From: an uncultured Flavobacteriales bacterium | Lineage (GTDB): Bacteria; Bacteroidota; Bacteroidia; Flavobacteriales; Crocinitomicaceae | NCBI GenBank assembly: GCA_946479985.1 | Contig: CAMLIF010000040.1 | Location: forward strand, 1 to 28,432 | DNA: 28,432 nucleotides | Direction: 5' to 3' | In this document: positions 10,499-16,489 of the stretch, in pieces | How the letters are laid out: every line of letters begins with the position of its first letter | Numbering within the stretch: the first letter of the stretch is position 1 | Notes under the pieces: generated by a model | The model's database searches: none | Told to the model about the DNA's origin: nothing | What the model saw: the letters and a program-made list of their open reading frames with translations, nothing else | Made by a program: the position numbers and the translations under genes

Positions 10499-12043
10499 TT
10501 AATCTCTCGGCTCGGGTAATTCGGGTAGTTCCGGAAGATCGTATTCATATGATTGGAAAGGTTCGTCGCTGTACATAACACCGCCGTATTCTTTTCCGTC
10601 AATTTTGGTTTCCAATCCGTTAATGAATAGTTTTTTTCCTTTTGGAACTTCTACTATGATCTCAATTTCCTGATCGCGTAATCCATCGCCTAAAGGATAG
10701 GAATAGTATGGGTCTATCAGCAATTTGTTTCCGTCCAGTTTTAGTTCATGTTTGATATTCATGCTTCGTTTCAGGGCTGCTGTTCTATCGATTCCATGAG
10801 CACTCAAAAGTTGGTAAACATGGAATACAGTATCGGTAGTTTCTTTGTATTTGATATGAACTCCGTGATCTGTTAAACGCCCGTTCTGAATGGTAAAGAA
10901 GCTGAAACCGCCATTATTCACGACTTTTCGGTTATTGACGATAAGCGGCAATTCTTTGATGATCAACTCATCCGAATCAATTGTTATGTGTTGATTTTCA
11001 ATATCAGCGTAAGCTTCATAATCGCGTATTGTATGAATGCTTGAAATAATGATCAGGATGACTCCACAAACAAAAACAACCGGTAATCCGATCAGGCTGA
11101 TTGTGAAGAATTTTGATTTTTTGTTCAGGAAAATTCGAACTCCAAGAATCAATCCGATGAGCGGTGCTGTAAATCCGGTAAGTAGAATACTAAACCACAT
11201 GAGATTTACGGAATTGTTGTCTTCCGGGCATACCAATCGCAGGTATTCGTGGAACGAAGCATAGTTTTGATCGCCTGTTACCGGGAAAACCTGTAAAACT
11301 CCGGAAACCATTAAGGTGAATCCGATTAGCCAAATACAGGAGAACGCGATAAAACCAACTCCGATTATCTTGGCAAAAATCCCAACCAGGTGACGTGCAC
11401 GTTCTGAGATATGCGCGTTATTGCGCAATTTCTCTGTTGACTGCATAAACTCTGATTTTTTTGTTTTTGCAGTTCTGGAAATTTCCTCTTTGATCGAATC
11501 AACAGTTACTGGTTTTCCGCGCAATTGCAAACGATCAGAAGGTGTTTTTGCATTCGGGATTACGATCCAAAGAATTATGTAAAGCGGGAATCCGAATCCC
11601 ATGAACAACGAAATCGCAAATAAGATTCGAATGATTACAGGATCAATATTCAGGTATGCTGCCAATCCTGAACAAACTCCTCCAAGTGAAGCATTGTCCA
11701 TATCTCTGAAGAGTCTGCGTTTTACATCTTCTTCTTTTGACGAAGAGCTTGTGGCTGAACTTTGAAATGAACTTGATTCTTCAGAAATCATTTCCGGTTC
11801 TCCAAGCGAAGTAATTACATTTTCAACTTCCGGCATTGTTACTACAATGAGTTTGTTCTCCGTCAATTTCAGCTGAAGAATTTCTGCGCAGCGCATTTCA
11901 ATATCTTCTAAAATCTCACGAATTCCTTCTTCCGGTGAAAGCGATTGCTCTAATCTTTTCAGGTATTCGGTTAATCGCTGGTATGCGTCTTCTTCTATGG
12001 TAAACAACTGTCGACCTAAATGTATAGAAAGTGTCTTTTTCAT
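10499..12043 (-). CDS. PspC-domain membrane protein
   Basis: This is a 514-residue inner-membrane protein. Residues 1-95 form a cytoplasmic domain (MKKTLSIHLGRQLFTIEEDAYQRL, then EDIEMRCAEIL) that usually precedes PspC in Bacteroidota. A Ser-rich linker leads to the PspC domain (about 110-165): KRRLFRDMDNASLGGVCSGLAAYLNIDPVIIRILF with its hydrophobic hairpin. Three further membrane helices follow at about 217-245, 268-298 and 315-338. The last 160 residues are a beta-rich domain outside the membrane, ending in an acidic Pro-Glu repeat (LPELPELPEPRD). PspC proteins belong to envelope-stress systems, but the partners here are unknown. The gene follows the PadR gene by 10 bases and should be repressed by it through the promoter at 12396-12426. 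Confidence 0.85.
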   Translation of the reverse strand: MKKTLSIHLGRQLFTIEEDAYQRLTEYLKRLEQSLSPEEGIREILEDIEMRCAEILQLKLTENKLIVVTMPEVENVITSLGEPEMISEESSSFQSSATSSSSKEEDVKRRLFRDMDNASLGGVCSGLAAYLNIDPVIIRILFAISLFMGFGFPLYIILWIVIPNAKTPSDRLQLRGKPVTVDSIKEEISRTAKTKKSEFMQSTEKLRNNAHISERARHLVGIFAKIIGVGFIAFSCIWLIGFTLMVSGVLQVFPVTGDQNYASFHEYLRLVCPEDNNSVNLMWFSILLTGFTAPLIGLILGVRIFLNKKSKFFTISLIGLPVVFVCGVILIIISSIHTIRDYEAYADIENQHITIDSDELIIKELPLIVNNRKVVNNGGFSFFTIQNGRLTDHGVHIKYKETTDTVFHVYQLLSAHGIDRTAALKRSMNIKHELKLDGNKLLIDPYYSYPLGDGLRDQEIEIIVEVPKGKKLFINGLETKIDGKEYGGVMYSDEPFQSYEYDLPELPELPEPRD

Positions 12044-12053
12044 GATAATGGTA

Positions 12054-12377
12054 TTACGTTCTTAATGTTTCTACTGCGTTTTGCAGTTCATTCCACGTCT
12101 GTTGTAAGGCGTTGAGAGTAACTTGTCCATTAGCAGTAATGGAATAGTATTTTCTGGGTGGACCTGACGTAGATTCTTCCCAGCGATAGGAGAGTAGTTC
12201 CATATTTTTAAGTCTCGTCAACAAAGGATAAAGCGTTCCTTCAACTACAATCAGTTTGGCGTTTTTTAATTGTTCCAAAACTTCCGACGGATATGCTTCC
12301 TTTTTGTTTAGAATACTAAGAATACAGAACTCCAGGATACCTTTCCGCATTTGCGCTTGTGTGTTCTCGTGATTCAT
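12054..12377 (-). CDS. PadR-family transcriptional repressor
   Basis: This is a 107-residue winged-helix regulator of the short PadR type (PF03551). The helix-turn-helix runs MRKGILEFCILSILNKKEAYPSEVLEQL. The wing region is LIVVEGTLYPLLTRLKNMELLSYRWEES, followed by GPPRKYYSITANGQ, the family hallmark. The C-terminal helix (VTLNALQQTWNELQNAVETL) is the dimerisation helix. PadR dimers usually repress their own operon and release DNA on a signal. Here the gene leads the PspC gene, and its promoter carries three AGTACT boxes, which fits autoregulation of a membrane-stress operon. Such PadR-PspC pairs are common in Bacteroidota. The effector is unknown. Confidence 0.92.
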   Translation of the reverse strand: MNHENTQAQMRKGILEFCILSILNKKEAYPSEVLEQLKNAKLIVVEGTLYPLLTRLKNMELLSYRWEESTSGPPRKYYSITANGQVTLNALQQTWNELQNAVETLRT

Positions 12378-12379
12378 AA

Positions 12380-12436
12380 AGTACTATTTATAGCACAAAT
12401 ATATGTTATGTTTAGTACTATGCAAAACAAAGTACT
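12380..12436. promoter_or_regulatory. Probable PadR operator: three AGTACT palindromes
   Basis: AGTACT occurs at 12380-12385, 12414-12419 and 12431-12436. The centres are 34 and 17 bases apart, so they fit one 17-base period. The boxes lie near the transcription start, between -33 and -7, and just upstream of -33, which is where a repressor would block polymerase. Binding by the PadR protein is inference. Confidence 0.6.
12396..12426 (-). promoter_or_regulatory. padR-pspC promoter, consensus TTTG-N19-TATATTTG
   Basis: The -7 box TATATTTG is at 12396-12403 and the -33 box TTTG at 12423-12426, exactly 19 bases apart on the minus strand. This matches the Bacteroidota primary sigma consensus fully. 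The expected start of transcription lies just before the ATG at 12377. Confidence 0.8.
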
Positions 12437-12728
12437 GTTTATTTTTGAAAAATATTCTAAATGGAAGTTGGTATATACATTAATTAGCTGATTTTCAGGT
12501 GTTTTTGTTTTCGTTTTTCTTGGGAATTGTTTTTGAAAAATATGGGAGGAATACAAATCCACCATCGTTATATGGTAAAAATCCACTCCAGGAAGTGAGT
12601 TTTATTGTCCGGAAAATAGAAGCAACTGACGGAGTTTAAGTACCATTAACCTAATTTGTCTTTTGCGCCCACACTTTTCACTGTAACTTATATTCCGGAA
12701 ATACGCTTATAGCGATAAACAGAACTTT
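12437..12728. other. Intergenic region between padR and the DUF4407 gene
   Basis: Together with the padR promoter region this is a 351-base divergent spacer (12378-12728). I see no credible gene in it. A minus-strand frame reaching into it contains the promoter and operators and is not protein-like. No consensus promoter for the DUF4407 gene stands out; the closest T-rich motifs are around 12655-12665. Confidence 0.5.
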
Positions 12729-13763
12729 ATGGAAGAAAAAACGAATGATCTGAAGCCGAAGAAGCAGAATGAGTCAGATCAAATGACCGAAATCCTGTGG
12801 TGGTTTTCAACAGCGATTAAAGAGCTTATTCAGGATTGTACAGTTGATAGAAATCGCTATAAAATTGTGGGTTCTGCTATGCTTTTTACCTGGTTGTATG
12901 CTACTCTTGCCTGGGGTTATTTCTGGAGCACGAACTCTGATTCTCCGTTTGTTTATGTTTTGCTTGGGGTTTTTATGGGGGCGTTTGTGTTAGCTATAGA
13001 TCGCGTTTTGATTTCTTCTATTAACAAAGCAAAAAACAATATTGTAGCAATTATTTTGCGGATTGTCATGGCATTGTGCATCGGTGCTTTTCTGGCACAG
13101 CCCATTATTCTGTTCATTTTCAGTTCAGATGTTGACAGGGAAATACCAATTCTTTTAGATAAAAAACTGGCTGAAAAAAGAATCGAGGTTGAGCAGGTCT
13201 ATCAATCCAGGAAAGATGAACTGCTCCTGAATAAGAAGAAACTTGAAACTGAATTAAAAGAGAAAAACGATCTGGCTATCCAAAAGCAAAACGATTATCT
13301 GAAAGAGATTGACGGGACTGGAGGTTCAGGGAAATACGGAATCGGTGGAATTGCCGAAGCTAAAAAGAACAGTTTTCAGATTATTCAATCGGATTTGGAG
13401 AAAACGCAAACTTCAACTACCAAAGAGTTAGAGAAGATAACTACTGAGTTAGATGAAATCAATGCAAAGATTACCAAAAGTGTTTCTGATTTCGAAAAGA
13501 CATTGGATGGGAAAGGTTTTCTTATTAAAAAAGAAGCTCTTGAATCGTTGTTCAGCAAAGACAAAACCCACGGTCTACAGAACCAGTATTATTTGCTAAC
13601 AGTAATATTGACGTTATTCGAATTGATCCCCATAATCAGCAAATTATTTCTATCGTATGGCGCCTATGATACAAAGGTAGCGCTTCGTGAAGAGTTGGAA
13701 ATGAAAGTTGCGGAAATGAAATCTGAAAGAGACCTGGAAGATGCAACCAGGGAACTCAAATAG
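12729..13763 (+). CDS. DUF4407 membrane/coiled-coil protein
   Basis: This is a 344-residue protein of the DUF4407 type, whose function is unknown. After a charged N-terminus and the segment ILWWFSTAIKELIQDC, two membrane helices lie close together (about 46-66 and 73-92: FTWLYATLAWGYFW, VYVLLGVFMGAFVLAIDRVLI). A third follows at about 103-130. A long Lys/Glu coiled coil (about 140-255) is interrupted by a Gly-rich turn (GTGGSGKYGIGGIAEAKK). A fourth hydrophobic helix (about 283-308) returns to the membrane before a charged tail. The IDR between the second and third helices is a conserved family feature. It is a single-gene transcript ending in a strong terminator at 13795-13825. DUF4407 proteins are scattered in Bacteroidota, and nothing here suggests a partner. 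Confidence 0.8.
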   Translation: MEEKTNDLKPKKQNESDQMTEILWWFSTAIKELIQDCTVDRNRYKIVGSAMLFTWLYATLAWGYFWSTNSDSPFVYVLLGVFMGAFVLAIDRVLISSINKAKNNIVAIILRIVMALCIGAFLAQPIILFIFSSDVDREIPILLDKKLAEKRIEVEQVYQSRKDELLLNKKKLETELKEKNDLAIQKQNDYLKEIDGTGGSGKYGIGGIAEAKKNSFQIIQSDLEKTQTSTTKELEKITTELDEINAKITKSVSDFEKTLDGKGFLIKKEALESLFSKDKTHGLQNQYYLLTVILTLFELIPIISKLFLSYGAYDTKVALREELEMKVAEMKSERDLEDATRELK

Positions 13764-13794
13764 CTATTAAGGATCAGGATTTGTAAATAAGGCC

Positions 13795-13825
13795 CGGGCA
13801 GAATGATTCATTCTGCCCGTTTTTT
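13795..13825 (+). terminator. Rho-independent terminator of the DUF4407 gene
   Basis: CGGGCAGAAT pairs with ATTCTGCCCG (10 bp, loop GATTC), followed by six T. It begins 31 bases after the stop. Confidence 0.9.
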
Positions 13826-13905
13826 GTTTTGTAAACCTTGAATTATTGGGTCAGAAAAGCACTGAATTGTCAACGATCAAAAAAAAAATAAAAAAAATAG
13901 TTTTC

Positions 13906-13936
13906 TGTGTTTACCTTTTATTCGATCCGACATTTG
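13906..13936 (+). promoter_or_regulatory. Candidate orphan promoter TGTG-N19-GACATTTG
   Basis: The -33-like TGTG is at 13906-13909 and the -7-like GACATTTG at 13929-13936, exactly 19 bases apart. Each box has one mismatch to TTTG/TAnnTTTG. No reading frame follows, only a terminator at 14025-14059. Confidence 0.45.
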
Positions 13937-13940
13937 ATAG

Positions 13941-14059
13941 TAACCATTTAAAAAAGGATAGCAGAAAATCGTGTTCTACCTGTTGGAACCGGAAAGATAT
14001 AATACCTGCGAATACCTAAATCATATCCTGTCGGCATAACCCCCGGCAGGATTTTTTTT
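13941..14059 (+). ncRNA. Candidate small RNA of about 115 nt (6S-like architecture possible)
   Basis: Between a near-consensus promoter and a strong intrinsic terminator there is no open frame. The DUF4407 gene already ends at its own terminator 115 bases earlier. The RNA can fold into an extended rod: AGGATA (13955-13960) with TATCCT (14024-14029), GCAG (13961-13964) with CTGC (14006-14009), a large A-rich asymmetric bubble, and an apical hairpin GTTCTA/TGGAAC (13973-13989). A long hairpin with an internal bubble is the architecture of 6S RNA, which binds RNA polymerase, and a flavobacterial 6S family is known. The resemblance here is only architectural. The lower stem competes with the terminator stem, so a regulatory leader or another sRNA class is equally possible. 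Confidence 0.45.
14025..14059 (+). terminator. Rho-independent terminator of the orphan transcription unit
   Basis: ATCCTGTCGG (14025-14034) pairs with CCGGCAGGAT (14043-14052) with one G-T pair and an 8-base loop, followed by eight T. The T tract is on the plus strand only, so it does not serve the convergent lipoprotein gene. Confidence 0.85.
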
Positions 14060-14068
14060 GCTCTCATG

Positions 14069-14602
14069 TTATTTGATCTTTACATTTAGAATGGTATCTA
14101 ACAGAACTGTTTCATCATCGAATTTAGATCTGAAATAGAAAGCATAGTTTCCGGGGGAAATAGTTGTTTTTAACTTTAGATAAGATGATTCAACATGGCT
14201 GAAATGATCCACAGATTCTGTGATATAATCGAGAGATTCCGCTAATTGTACTTCGTCGAGTTTCTCAGAGTAATAAACATTGAAGAGTGAGTTCAGTGAG
14301 CTTCCTGGGGATCTTCCGCTTACTGTTTTGTCTGAGGTGATTTTAAATTCCAAAACCGGATTTAGCACCCGAACTGAGGTTTCAACCGGATCATAAGGTG
14401 CATTGTTTGATTCCGCATCCCAATGAATGCGAAAACCAAAATGAGAGCCGTTTATAGAATCTTCAATAGTGAGGGGTGATCCATCGATTGATTGCAGTTT
14501 AGCAGCTGTAAATTCAACGCCTTTCACCTGGTAAACCAAATCTTCGTTTTCCTGACAGGAAGAAAGTAGAAGCAGTGTTGAGATAAAGGCGAAGGATTTC
14601 AT
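14069..14602 (-). CDS. Lipoprotein, function unknown
   Basis: This is a 177-residue lipoprotein. The signal peptide MKSFAFISTLLLLSSC has the lipobox LSSC (Cys16) and is followed by an acidic QENED, as in exported Bacteroidota lipoproteins. The body is beta-rich, with YQVKGVEFTAAKL at the start, FRIHWDAESN in the middle, and closing strands NYAFYFRSKF and ILNVKIK. I cannot assign a family; a distant likeness to Bacteroidota DUF50xx lipoproteins is only an impression. It lies just downstream of rpsA on the same strand but behind the rpsA terminator, and no good promoter is visible, so expression may depend on read-through. It converges with the candidate small RNA. Confidence 0.7.
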   Translation of the reverse strand: MKSFAFISTLLLLSSCQENEDLVYQVKGVEFTAAKLQSIDGSPLTIEDSINGSHFGFRIHWDAESNNAPYDPVETSVRVLNPVLEFKITSDKTVSGRSPGSSLNSLFNVYYSEKLDEVQLAESLDYITESVDHFSHVESSYLKLKTTISPGNYAFYFRSKFDDETVLLDTILNVKIK

Positions 14603-14631
14603 GGTTAAATTTAAGGAAAAGTCTTTAAACG

Positions 14632-14664
14632 AAAAATCCCGCTGCCAAATGACAACGGGATTTT
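14632..14664 (-). terminator. Rho-independent terminator of rpsA
   Basis: On the minus strand AAATCCCGTTG pairs with CAGCGGGATTT (one G-T pair) around a short loop, followed by a T tract. It starts about 25 bases after the rpsA stop. Confidence 0.8.
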
Positions 14665-14686
14665 CTATTCTTAAGAAAAACTGAGA

Positions 14687-16489
14687 TTATTCTCCGCCTT
14701 CCATTTTCTCTTTCAATGCAGCTAAAGCGTCCAAATCTCCTAATGTAGATTTTTCGTTTCCTGAATTGTTTGCTTTTACAGCTTGAGAAGTAGCAGAACC
14801 ACCACCAGCGCTAGGAGCACCTTTTTTACCGGCTGCAGCTTTTACTGGTTTTTCGTCTGTTCCTTCTTCGAACATACGTGTATGAGAAACAACAATTTTC
14901 TTAGATTCTTTGTTGAACTCAATTACTTTGAAATCTAAAGTTTCTTCAACTTTCGCGTTTGTTCCATCTTCTTTACGTAAGTGTTTAGAAGGACAAATTC
15001 CTTCAACACCGTAAGGCAATGCAACTACACCAGCTTTGTCTTTAGTTTCAATGATTGTACCCTGGTGAACTGAACCTTCTCCGAAGATAGTTTCAAACAC
15101 ATCCCATGGATTTTCTTCCAATTGTTTGTGTCCTAAAGAAATACGACGGTTTTCACGATCAATTTCCAAAACTACAACTTCCATTTCGTCACCTACCTTA
15201 CAGAATTCAGACGGGTGCTTGATTTTCTTTTGCCAAGAAAGATCTGAAATGTGGATCAATCCGTCAACACCTTCTTCTAATTCAACGAATACACCGAAGT
15301 TAGTGAAGTTACGAACTTTTGCATTGTGCTTAGTACCAGCAGCGTATTTCGCTTCGATAGCAGCCCATGGATCCGGCATCAATTGTTTAATACCAAGAGA
15401 CATTTTACGCTCTTCACGATCTAAAGTAAGGATAACAGCCTCAACTGAATCTCCAACTTTCATGAAGTCTTGCGCAGAACGTAAGTGTTGTGACCAGCTC
15501 ATTTCTGAAACGTGGATCAAACCTTCTACACCTGGAGCAATCTCGATGAATGCACCGTAGTCAGCCAATACAACAACTTTTCCTGAGATTTTGTCACCAA
15601 CAGCTAAGTTAGTATCCAAAGCATCCCATGGATGTGGTTGCAATTGTTTCAATCCAAGAGCGATACGTTTTTTATCGTCGTCGAAATCTAAGATTACAAC
15701 GTTCAATTTCTGATCCAATTCAACGATTTCTTCCGGGTGGTTAACACGTCCCCAAGACAAATCTGTAATGTGGATCAAACCATCTACACCACCTAAATCG
15801 ATGAACACACCATAAGAAGTAATGTTTTTCACAGTACCTTCTAATACTTGTCCTTTCTCTAAGCCCGAGATAATTTGTTTCTTTTGTTCTTCTAATTCTG
15901 CTTCGATCAACGCTTTGTGAGAAACAACTACGTTTCTGAACTCCTGGTTAATTTTAACAACTTTGAACTCCATGTTTTTACCAACGTAAACATCGTAGTC
16001 ACGAATAGGCTTAACATCAATTTGAGAACCAGGCAAGAAAGCCTCAATTCCAAATACGTCAACGATCAAACCACCTTTTGTACGACATTTAACGAATCCG
16101 GTGATAACTTCACCAGTACGTAATACATCGTTCACACGGATCCATGCTTTATGCATACGAGCTGTGCGGTGAGATACGATCAACTGACCTGTCTTGTCTT
16201 CCTGACATTCAACAAATACGTCAACTTTGTCTCCAACTTTTAACTCCGTGTTGTAACGGAATTCAGAAGCAGCAACAACACCTTCAGATTTGTATCCGAT
16301 GTTGATAATCACTTCTTTTTTGGTAACTGAAATTACAGTTCCCTCAACTACTTCTTTCTCGTTGATAGAAGTAAGGGTTTTACCGTAAGTGTCTGACATT
16401 TCAGAACGCTGTACTAAAGTATAACCATCTAACGCTAATGCGTCCCAATCAAAATCCGCAGAACCCTGCGTGTTTACTGTTTTTGCCAT
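14687..16489 (-). CDS. rpsA: 30S ribosomal protein S1
   Basis: S1 brings mRNA to the 30S subunit. This 600-residue protein has six S1 RNA-binding repeats, at about 45-112, 127-195, 213-283, 298-368, 385-455 and 472-545. The classic GVFIDLGGVDGLIHITDLSW pattern is strongest in repeats 3, 4 and 5, while repeat 1 (KEVVEGTVISVTKKEVIINIGYKSEG) and repeat 6 are divergent, as in other S1 proteins. The C-terminal tail is Lys/Gly/Ser-rich and ends in an acidic segment (LDALAALKEKMEGGE). A preceding cmk gene, the usual partner in proteobacteria, is absent. The promoter at 16591-16621 matches the consensus fully, and a leader of roughly 95 nt with alternative hairpins precedes the ATG, which suggests autogenous control. 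Confidence 0.97.
   Translation of the reverse strand: MAKTVNTQGSADFDWDALALDGYTLVQRSEMSDTYGKTLTSINEKEVVEGTVISVTKKEVIINIGYKSEGVVAASEFRYNTELKVGDKVDVFVECQEDKTGQLIVSHRTARMHKAWIRVNDVLRTGEVITGFVKCRTKGGLIVDVFGIEAFLPGSQIDVKPIRDYDVYVGKNMEFKVVKINQEFRNVVVSHKALIEAELEEQKKQIISGLEKGQVLEGTVKNITSYGVFIDLGGVDGLIHITDLSWGRVNHPEEIVELDQKLNVVILDFDDDKKRIALGLKQLQPHPWDALDTNLAVGDKISGKVVVLADYGAFIEIAPGVEGLIHVSEMSWSQHLRSAQDFMKVGDSVEAVILTLDREERKMSLGIKQLMPDPWAAIEAKYAAGTKHNAKVRNFTNFGVFVELEEGVDGLIHISDLSWQKKIKHPSEFCKVGDEMEVVVLEIDRENRRISLGHKQLEENPWDVFETIFGEGSVHQGTIIETKDKAGVVALPYGVEGICPSKHLRKEDGTNAKVEETLDFKVIEFNKESKKIVVSHTRMFEEGTDEKPVKAAAGKKGAPSAGGGSATSQAVKANNSGNEKSTLGDLDALAALKEKMEGGE

Follow-up and report, generated by a model that had tools for sequence, protein, structure and literature searches.

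The window analysed here is a stretch of 28,432 nucleotides from an uncultured Flavobacteriales bacterium, and its central part carries, in order, a PspC-domain gene, a PadR gene, a DUF4407 gene, the candidate unit, a gene for a protein of 177 amino acids, and rpsA. The candidate unit consists of a promoter-like string followed by an intrinsic terminator and was originally predicted to be a small RNA, possibly 6S-like, lying in a DUF4407-to-rpsA interval. The gene that follows it is in fact the 177-amino-acid gene on the minus strand, with rpsA after it. The features of the locus are as follows.

10499-12043, minus strand: PspC-domain gene
12054-12377, minus strand: PadR gene
12729-13763, plus strand: DUF4407 gene (PF14362, E 6.8e-69), upstream of the candidate unit
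13795-13825, plus strand: DUF4407 terminator, hairpin 13795-13819 and then six T
13846-14019, plus strand: 57-codon frame with TTG start, overlapping the unit
13879-13898, plus strand: A-rich tract read from the sequence, just 5' of the candidate promoter
13906-13936, plus strand: candidate promoter TGTG-N19-GACATTTG, one mismatch per box against TTTG / TANNTTTG
13943-14059, plus strand: predicted transcript of about 117 nt, its start estimated from the -7 box
13948-14067, minus strand: 39-codon frame with ATG start, overlapping the unit
13971-14039, plus strand: 22-codon frame with GTG start, inside the unit, its stop within the terminator loop
14025-14059, plus strand: orphan intrinsic terminator, stem 14025-14052 and T run 14052-14059 (eight T)
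14069-14602, minus strand: convergent 177-amino-acid gene, no Pfam match
14687-16489, minus strand: rpsA

The 177-amino-acid gene, which on our own reading appears to have a lipoprotein-like start, begins only ten bases 3' of the orphan terminator (14069 versus 14059). The six loci closest to the window by DUF4407 protein (77-84% identity) are found in records titled Fluviicola (three), Flavobacteriales (two), and 'Glaciecola amylolytica' (one), Fluviicola being a member of the Crocinitomicaceae (Flavobacteriales, Bacteroidota). The last of these records, CP034120.1, is titled as a gammaproteobacterium and appears to be mislabelled, since its genes are Fluviicola-like (DUF4407 84% identical, rpsA approximately 91-93%). 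As a separate observation, the heptamer GGATTAC occurs nine times in the window against 2.58 expected, a count reached in none of 100 shuffles, and this excess perhaps derives from codon use.

Transcription signals and reading frames

Both terminators named in the original prediction are present. The hairpin behind DUF4407, 32 nt past its stop codon, is strong (11 pairs, 7 G-C), which provides the upstream gene with a terminator of its own. The second is likewise strong (10 pairs, 6 G-C, loop of 8) and lies about 260 nt beyond the nearest same-strand stop codon, that of DUF4407. The window and the six DUF4407 loci, together 106,420 bases, were scanned outside called genes for hairpins with 8 or more pairs and 5 or more G-C, and 22 were found, comprising 16 sense terminators, three mirror images of sense ones, and three orphans. 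Each of the 16 sense terminators follows a same-strand stop codon by no more than 43 nt, whereas the 150 nt upstream of the window orphan, one of the three among these 22 intergenic terminators, contain no gene on its strand. A terminator that no upstream gene explains is one of the marks of a small-RNA gene, and this terminator bears it. Its position is unusual, yet orphans turn up about once per 35 kb. The other two (L003:4603-4636 and L004:2168-2188) have no same-strand gene called upstream within their loci and are possible 3' ends of small RNAs.

The promoter had been described as near-consensus. The string TGTG-N19-GACATTTG is indeed present, but the description is too generous: each box has a mismatch, and the -7 box has G where T-12 is expected, the other five nearly invariant bases being in place. 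T-12 is reported as one of six nearly invariant positions of the -7 element in Flavobacterium johnsoniae (PMC6847099), and the site at 13906-13936 consequently lacks the full set expected of a sigma-ABfr promoter. Exact copies of TTTG-N19-TAnnTTTG are located upstream of padR and of rpsA in the same window. At least one equally good plus-strand site arose in 11.9% of 1000 shuffles of 13830-14068; the window as a whole holds 74 such sites, where shuffling gives 79.7 on average, and its intergenic DNA holds 6 against 3.74. The candidate promoter is therefore weak and not unusual. The A-rich tract in front of it is possibly UP-element-like, an idea that gains no support from counting, as a strict criterion (20 A in 22 nt) identifies no A-tract in the window.

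It had also been stated that no protein frame lies between promoter and terminator. This is inexact, as frames of 22, 57, and 39 codons overlap the unit; none has a significant Pfam match (best E 0.11), and a homologue search with the 57-codon frame was empty. The 39-codon frame begins right after the stop of the 177-amino-acid gene and runs antisense across the entire unit.

Folding and conservation of the unit

The predicted transcript (13943-14059) has a minimum free energy of -26.9 kcal/mol (z -2.23), equalled by 4 of 200 shuffles. The terminator carries this signal, because the part before it (13943-14024) reaches a z of only -0.60, with 56 of 200 shuffles equal, and 13943-14016 gives +0.05, with 105 of 200 equal. 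The interrupted rod of 6S type proposed for this RNA is thus weak in the minimum-energy fold and not significant by energy once the terminator is removed, and its 'central bubble' is lopsided, with 4 nt facing 13 nt. When the unit was assessed for pairing with all 32 gene starts in the window, no target stood out (best z -2.1).

Comparison with relatives, which the original prediction proposed as a check, yielded no convincing homologue. In 149 related genomes, with at most five candidates scored per genome, 120 gave some match to the unit DNA at E<=1; those listed are pieces of 15-47 nt, and the best (E 4.8e-4, in one genome) is a piece of 35-36 nt within the promoter part. None of 399 genomes of the order matched at E<=0.001 with at most two candidates scored per genome, an empty result that, for a search lacking a known positive, says nothing by itself. 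A structure model of the unit alone, R1, gave matches at E<=1 in 7 of 40 genomes, the strongest with E 0.0198; run over the loci, its next best match after the window itself (E 0.024) lies beside rpsA and is, on our reading, a case of ordinary terminators. Conservation of sequence or structure between species, another mark of a small-RNA gene, was accordingly absent from the 149-relative, 399-genome, and R1 searches. As a control, every one of the 15 near genomes yielded SRP RNA at E<=1, with 14 scoring above the Rfam cut-off; a 99-nt copy used as a blastn query against the 15 loci, one of which was its source, showed 92.7-100% identity over 74-99 nt. Many small RNAs evolve faster than SRP RNA, and the control is accordingly more informative about housekeeping RNAs than about regulatory RNAs of recent origin.

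The surroundings of the unit also differ between genomes. In the six named relatives, the sequence 3' of DUF4407 is not that of the window. The rpsA-side locus was obtained for 14 of 15 genomes; near rpsA, padR lies within the flank in 8 of the 14, the 177-amino-acid gene in one, and DUF4407 in none, and the content of the rpsA-padR slot therefore changes. In this interval (window 12054-16489), relatives carry nothing, a single gene, or two other genes, and DUF4407 occurs there in the window alone. From these comparisons, the unit appears to be particular to the lineage of the window.

Search for 6S RNA in the window and a 6S-like RNA of Fluviicola-related genomes

No Rfam family reached its gathering score anywhere in the window. 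At E<=10, the segment 13700-14250 gave 15 sub-threshold matches, none of which was 6S and none of which covered the unit, so the covariance check proposed for 6S and 6S-Flavo provided no 6S family match. Taken alone, this failure proves little, because the same models fail in near genomes too: 6S-Flavo exceeded its cut-off in none of the relatives searched (0/6, 0/149, and 0/150), and 6S (RF00013) in none of 15 near genomes. For this reason, the two top-scoring 6S-Flavo matches below cut-off, L040 (41.4 bits) and L055 (46.4 bits), were used to build a further model, R2; L055 additionally matches Bacteroidales-1 at 31.8 bits. R2 was found in 7 of 40 relatives. A model of these related 6S-like RNAs, R3, was built from nine sequences and run with 76 candidates scored per genome; at E<=0.1, it has one match in each of 29 of the 40 genomes and none in the other 11, F. 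chungangensis (G006) included.

In the seven nearest genomes with a match (G001-G005, G008, and G010), the R3 matches are individually weak (31-40 bits, E 9.5e-4 to 0.045), but they align in MAFFT with a mean column identity of 89%, measure 155-157 nt, and have their gene neighbourhood in common. The copy at L105:1501-1656 lies between pyrroline-5-carboxylate-reductase-like and lipocalin-like genes; further copies lie in L106, L108, L110, L111, L112, L113, L102, and L104, among others (L081-L113). Across 34 sequences, 82.7% of the cells in the rod are paired, and the covariation score is 0.504, whereas shuffles give 0.190 and slid structures no more than 0.178; the score leans towards the model, since the alignment was fitted to it. 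RNAalifold on the seven independently aligned sequences gave 44 pairs, of which 10 are changed on both sides. In the genomes nearest the window, the RNA is enclosed by an outer stem similar to AACCCATGCAG / CTGCATGGGTTT that runs into T, and the closing stem may therefore double as a terminator. RF00013 gave a separate weak match in G001 (20.7 bits), which we read as chance. Among the genomes searched, Fluviicola-related genomes thus carry a conserved 6S-like RNA that the Rfam models for 6S-Flavo and 6S detect only with sub-threshold scores. A literature search found nothing on 6S RNA in Fluviicola and, for small RNA in that genus, nothing on the present unit.

In the window, R3 has no match at E<=10; when 13830-14100 was searched without filters, scores peaked at 10.0 bits on the minus strand and 5.4 bits on the plus strand. 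The candidate unit is consequently not the group's 6S-like RNA, as R3 matches another locus and none in the window. One could still imagine a divergent 6S RNA here, regulating RNA polymerase, since the length of about 115 nt approaches the 108 positions of the 6S-Flavo model and the minimum-energy fold contains a weak rod. With no 6S model match, a rod that is not significant, no conservation in the genomes searched, and the 6S-like RNA of the group situated elsewhere, we regard this idea as having next to no chance of being correct. On the same grounds, 6S RNA (RF00013, RF01685) was rejected as an identity for the unit, and the suggestion of 6S likeness is not supported. The practical yield of the check is that it removes the 6S claim and turns up the conserved RNA described above.

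Readings of the unit and known counterparts

The likeliest reading, on about an even footing with all of the alternatives combined, is a short transcription unit specific to the lineage that would yield a predicted noncoding RNA of approximately 115 nt. Transcription would begin near 13941-13943 at a weak promoter of sigma-ABfr type and end at the intrinsic terminator (14025-14059), whose hairpin would serve as a stable 3' end. If the RNA is functional, antisense pairing with mRNAs through its unstructured 5' part would be its likeliest mode of action; transcription, the start site, and pairing with any partner are all inferred. The orphan terminator and a suitably spaced promoter-like site argue for this reading, as do the many independent short transcripts reported for Flavobacterium psychrophilum (PMC9723704) and the variable gene content of the rpsA-padR slot; the missing T-12, the frequency of equal sites in shuffles, and the want of structure beyond the terminator, of a homologue, and of a target argue against it. 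The small-RNA proposal hence keeps its footing in a real orphan terminator, while its promoter was overrated and the genomes searched show no conservation of it.

Next in probability, although we think it rather unlikely, comes a backup terminator at which read-through from DUF4407 would be halted at 14059, sparing the convergent gene from antisense transcription, with the promoter string there by chance. The weakness of the promoter and the closeness of the 177-amino-acid gene suit such an arrangement, and partial termination is a recognized class in Flavobacterium psychrophilum, where it is reported for 67 of 1511 new transcribed regions (PMC9723704). It is opposed by the strength of the first terminator and by the scan, in which none of the 16 sense terminators has such a partner beside it. 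Less probable again is a chance or relict element, the surviving terminator of a lost or transposed gene that is functionless now; gene turnover in the rpsA-padR slot and the lack of a homologue in the 149 relatives and 399 genomes would fit, but no protein trace accompanies it, the 57-codon and shorter frames having given neither a homologue nor a significant Pfam match, and neither the stem nor the T run shows decay. A small protein, encoded by the 22-codon frame or by the 39-codon frame behind the 177-amino-acid gene, is very improbable. Both frames are open, and positions -3 and -6 of the GTG frame are both A, which is reported to favour initiation in F. johnsoniae (PMC6847099), but neither matches Pfam, the stop of the 22-codon frame sits in the terminator loop, and closed frames of at least 22 codons occur in 17% of 2000 shuffles of the unit, a figure that bears on the 22-codon frame, which is probably there by chance.

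As it stands, the short transcription unit favoured above is of little significance, being one more predicted small transcript and ordinary on present evidence. A more ambitious version, which we hold to be a long shot, is a recently born, species-specific regulatory RNA that would have arrived with the insertion of DUF4407 between rpsA and padR and would pair with chromosomal mRNAs. If true, this would be a rare small RNA of Bacteroidota whose birth could be placed on the species tree.

Apart from length, the unit differs from 6S-Flavo (RF01685) and 6S (RF00013) in having no covariance match, no significant rod, and no conservation in the genomes searched. It resembles the partial-termination 3' regions of F. 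psychrophilum in presenting a second terminator behind a gene that already has one, but differs from those described there in the putative promoter between the two (PMC9723704). Its counterpart for the preferred reading is found in the 'indep' class of the same study, which comprises 85 independent regions, including 40 that lie antisense to genes; these belong to the same order and, like the unit, are short and intergenic, with a terminator and no evident gene, but they were seen in RNA-seq, whereas the unit of the window is predicted and was found in no relative (PMC9723704).
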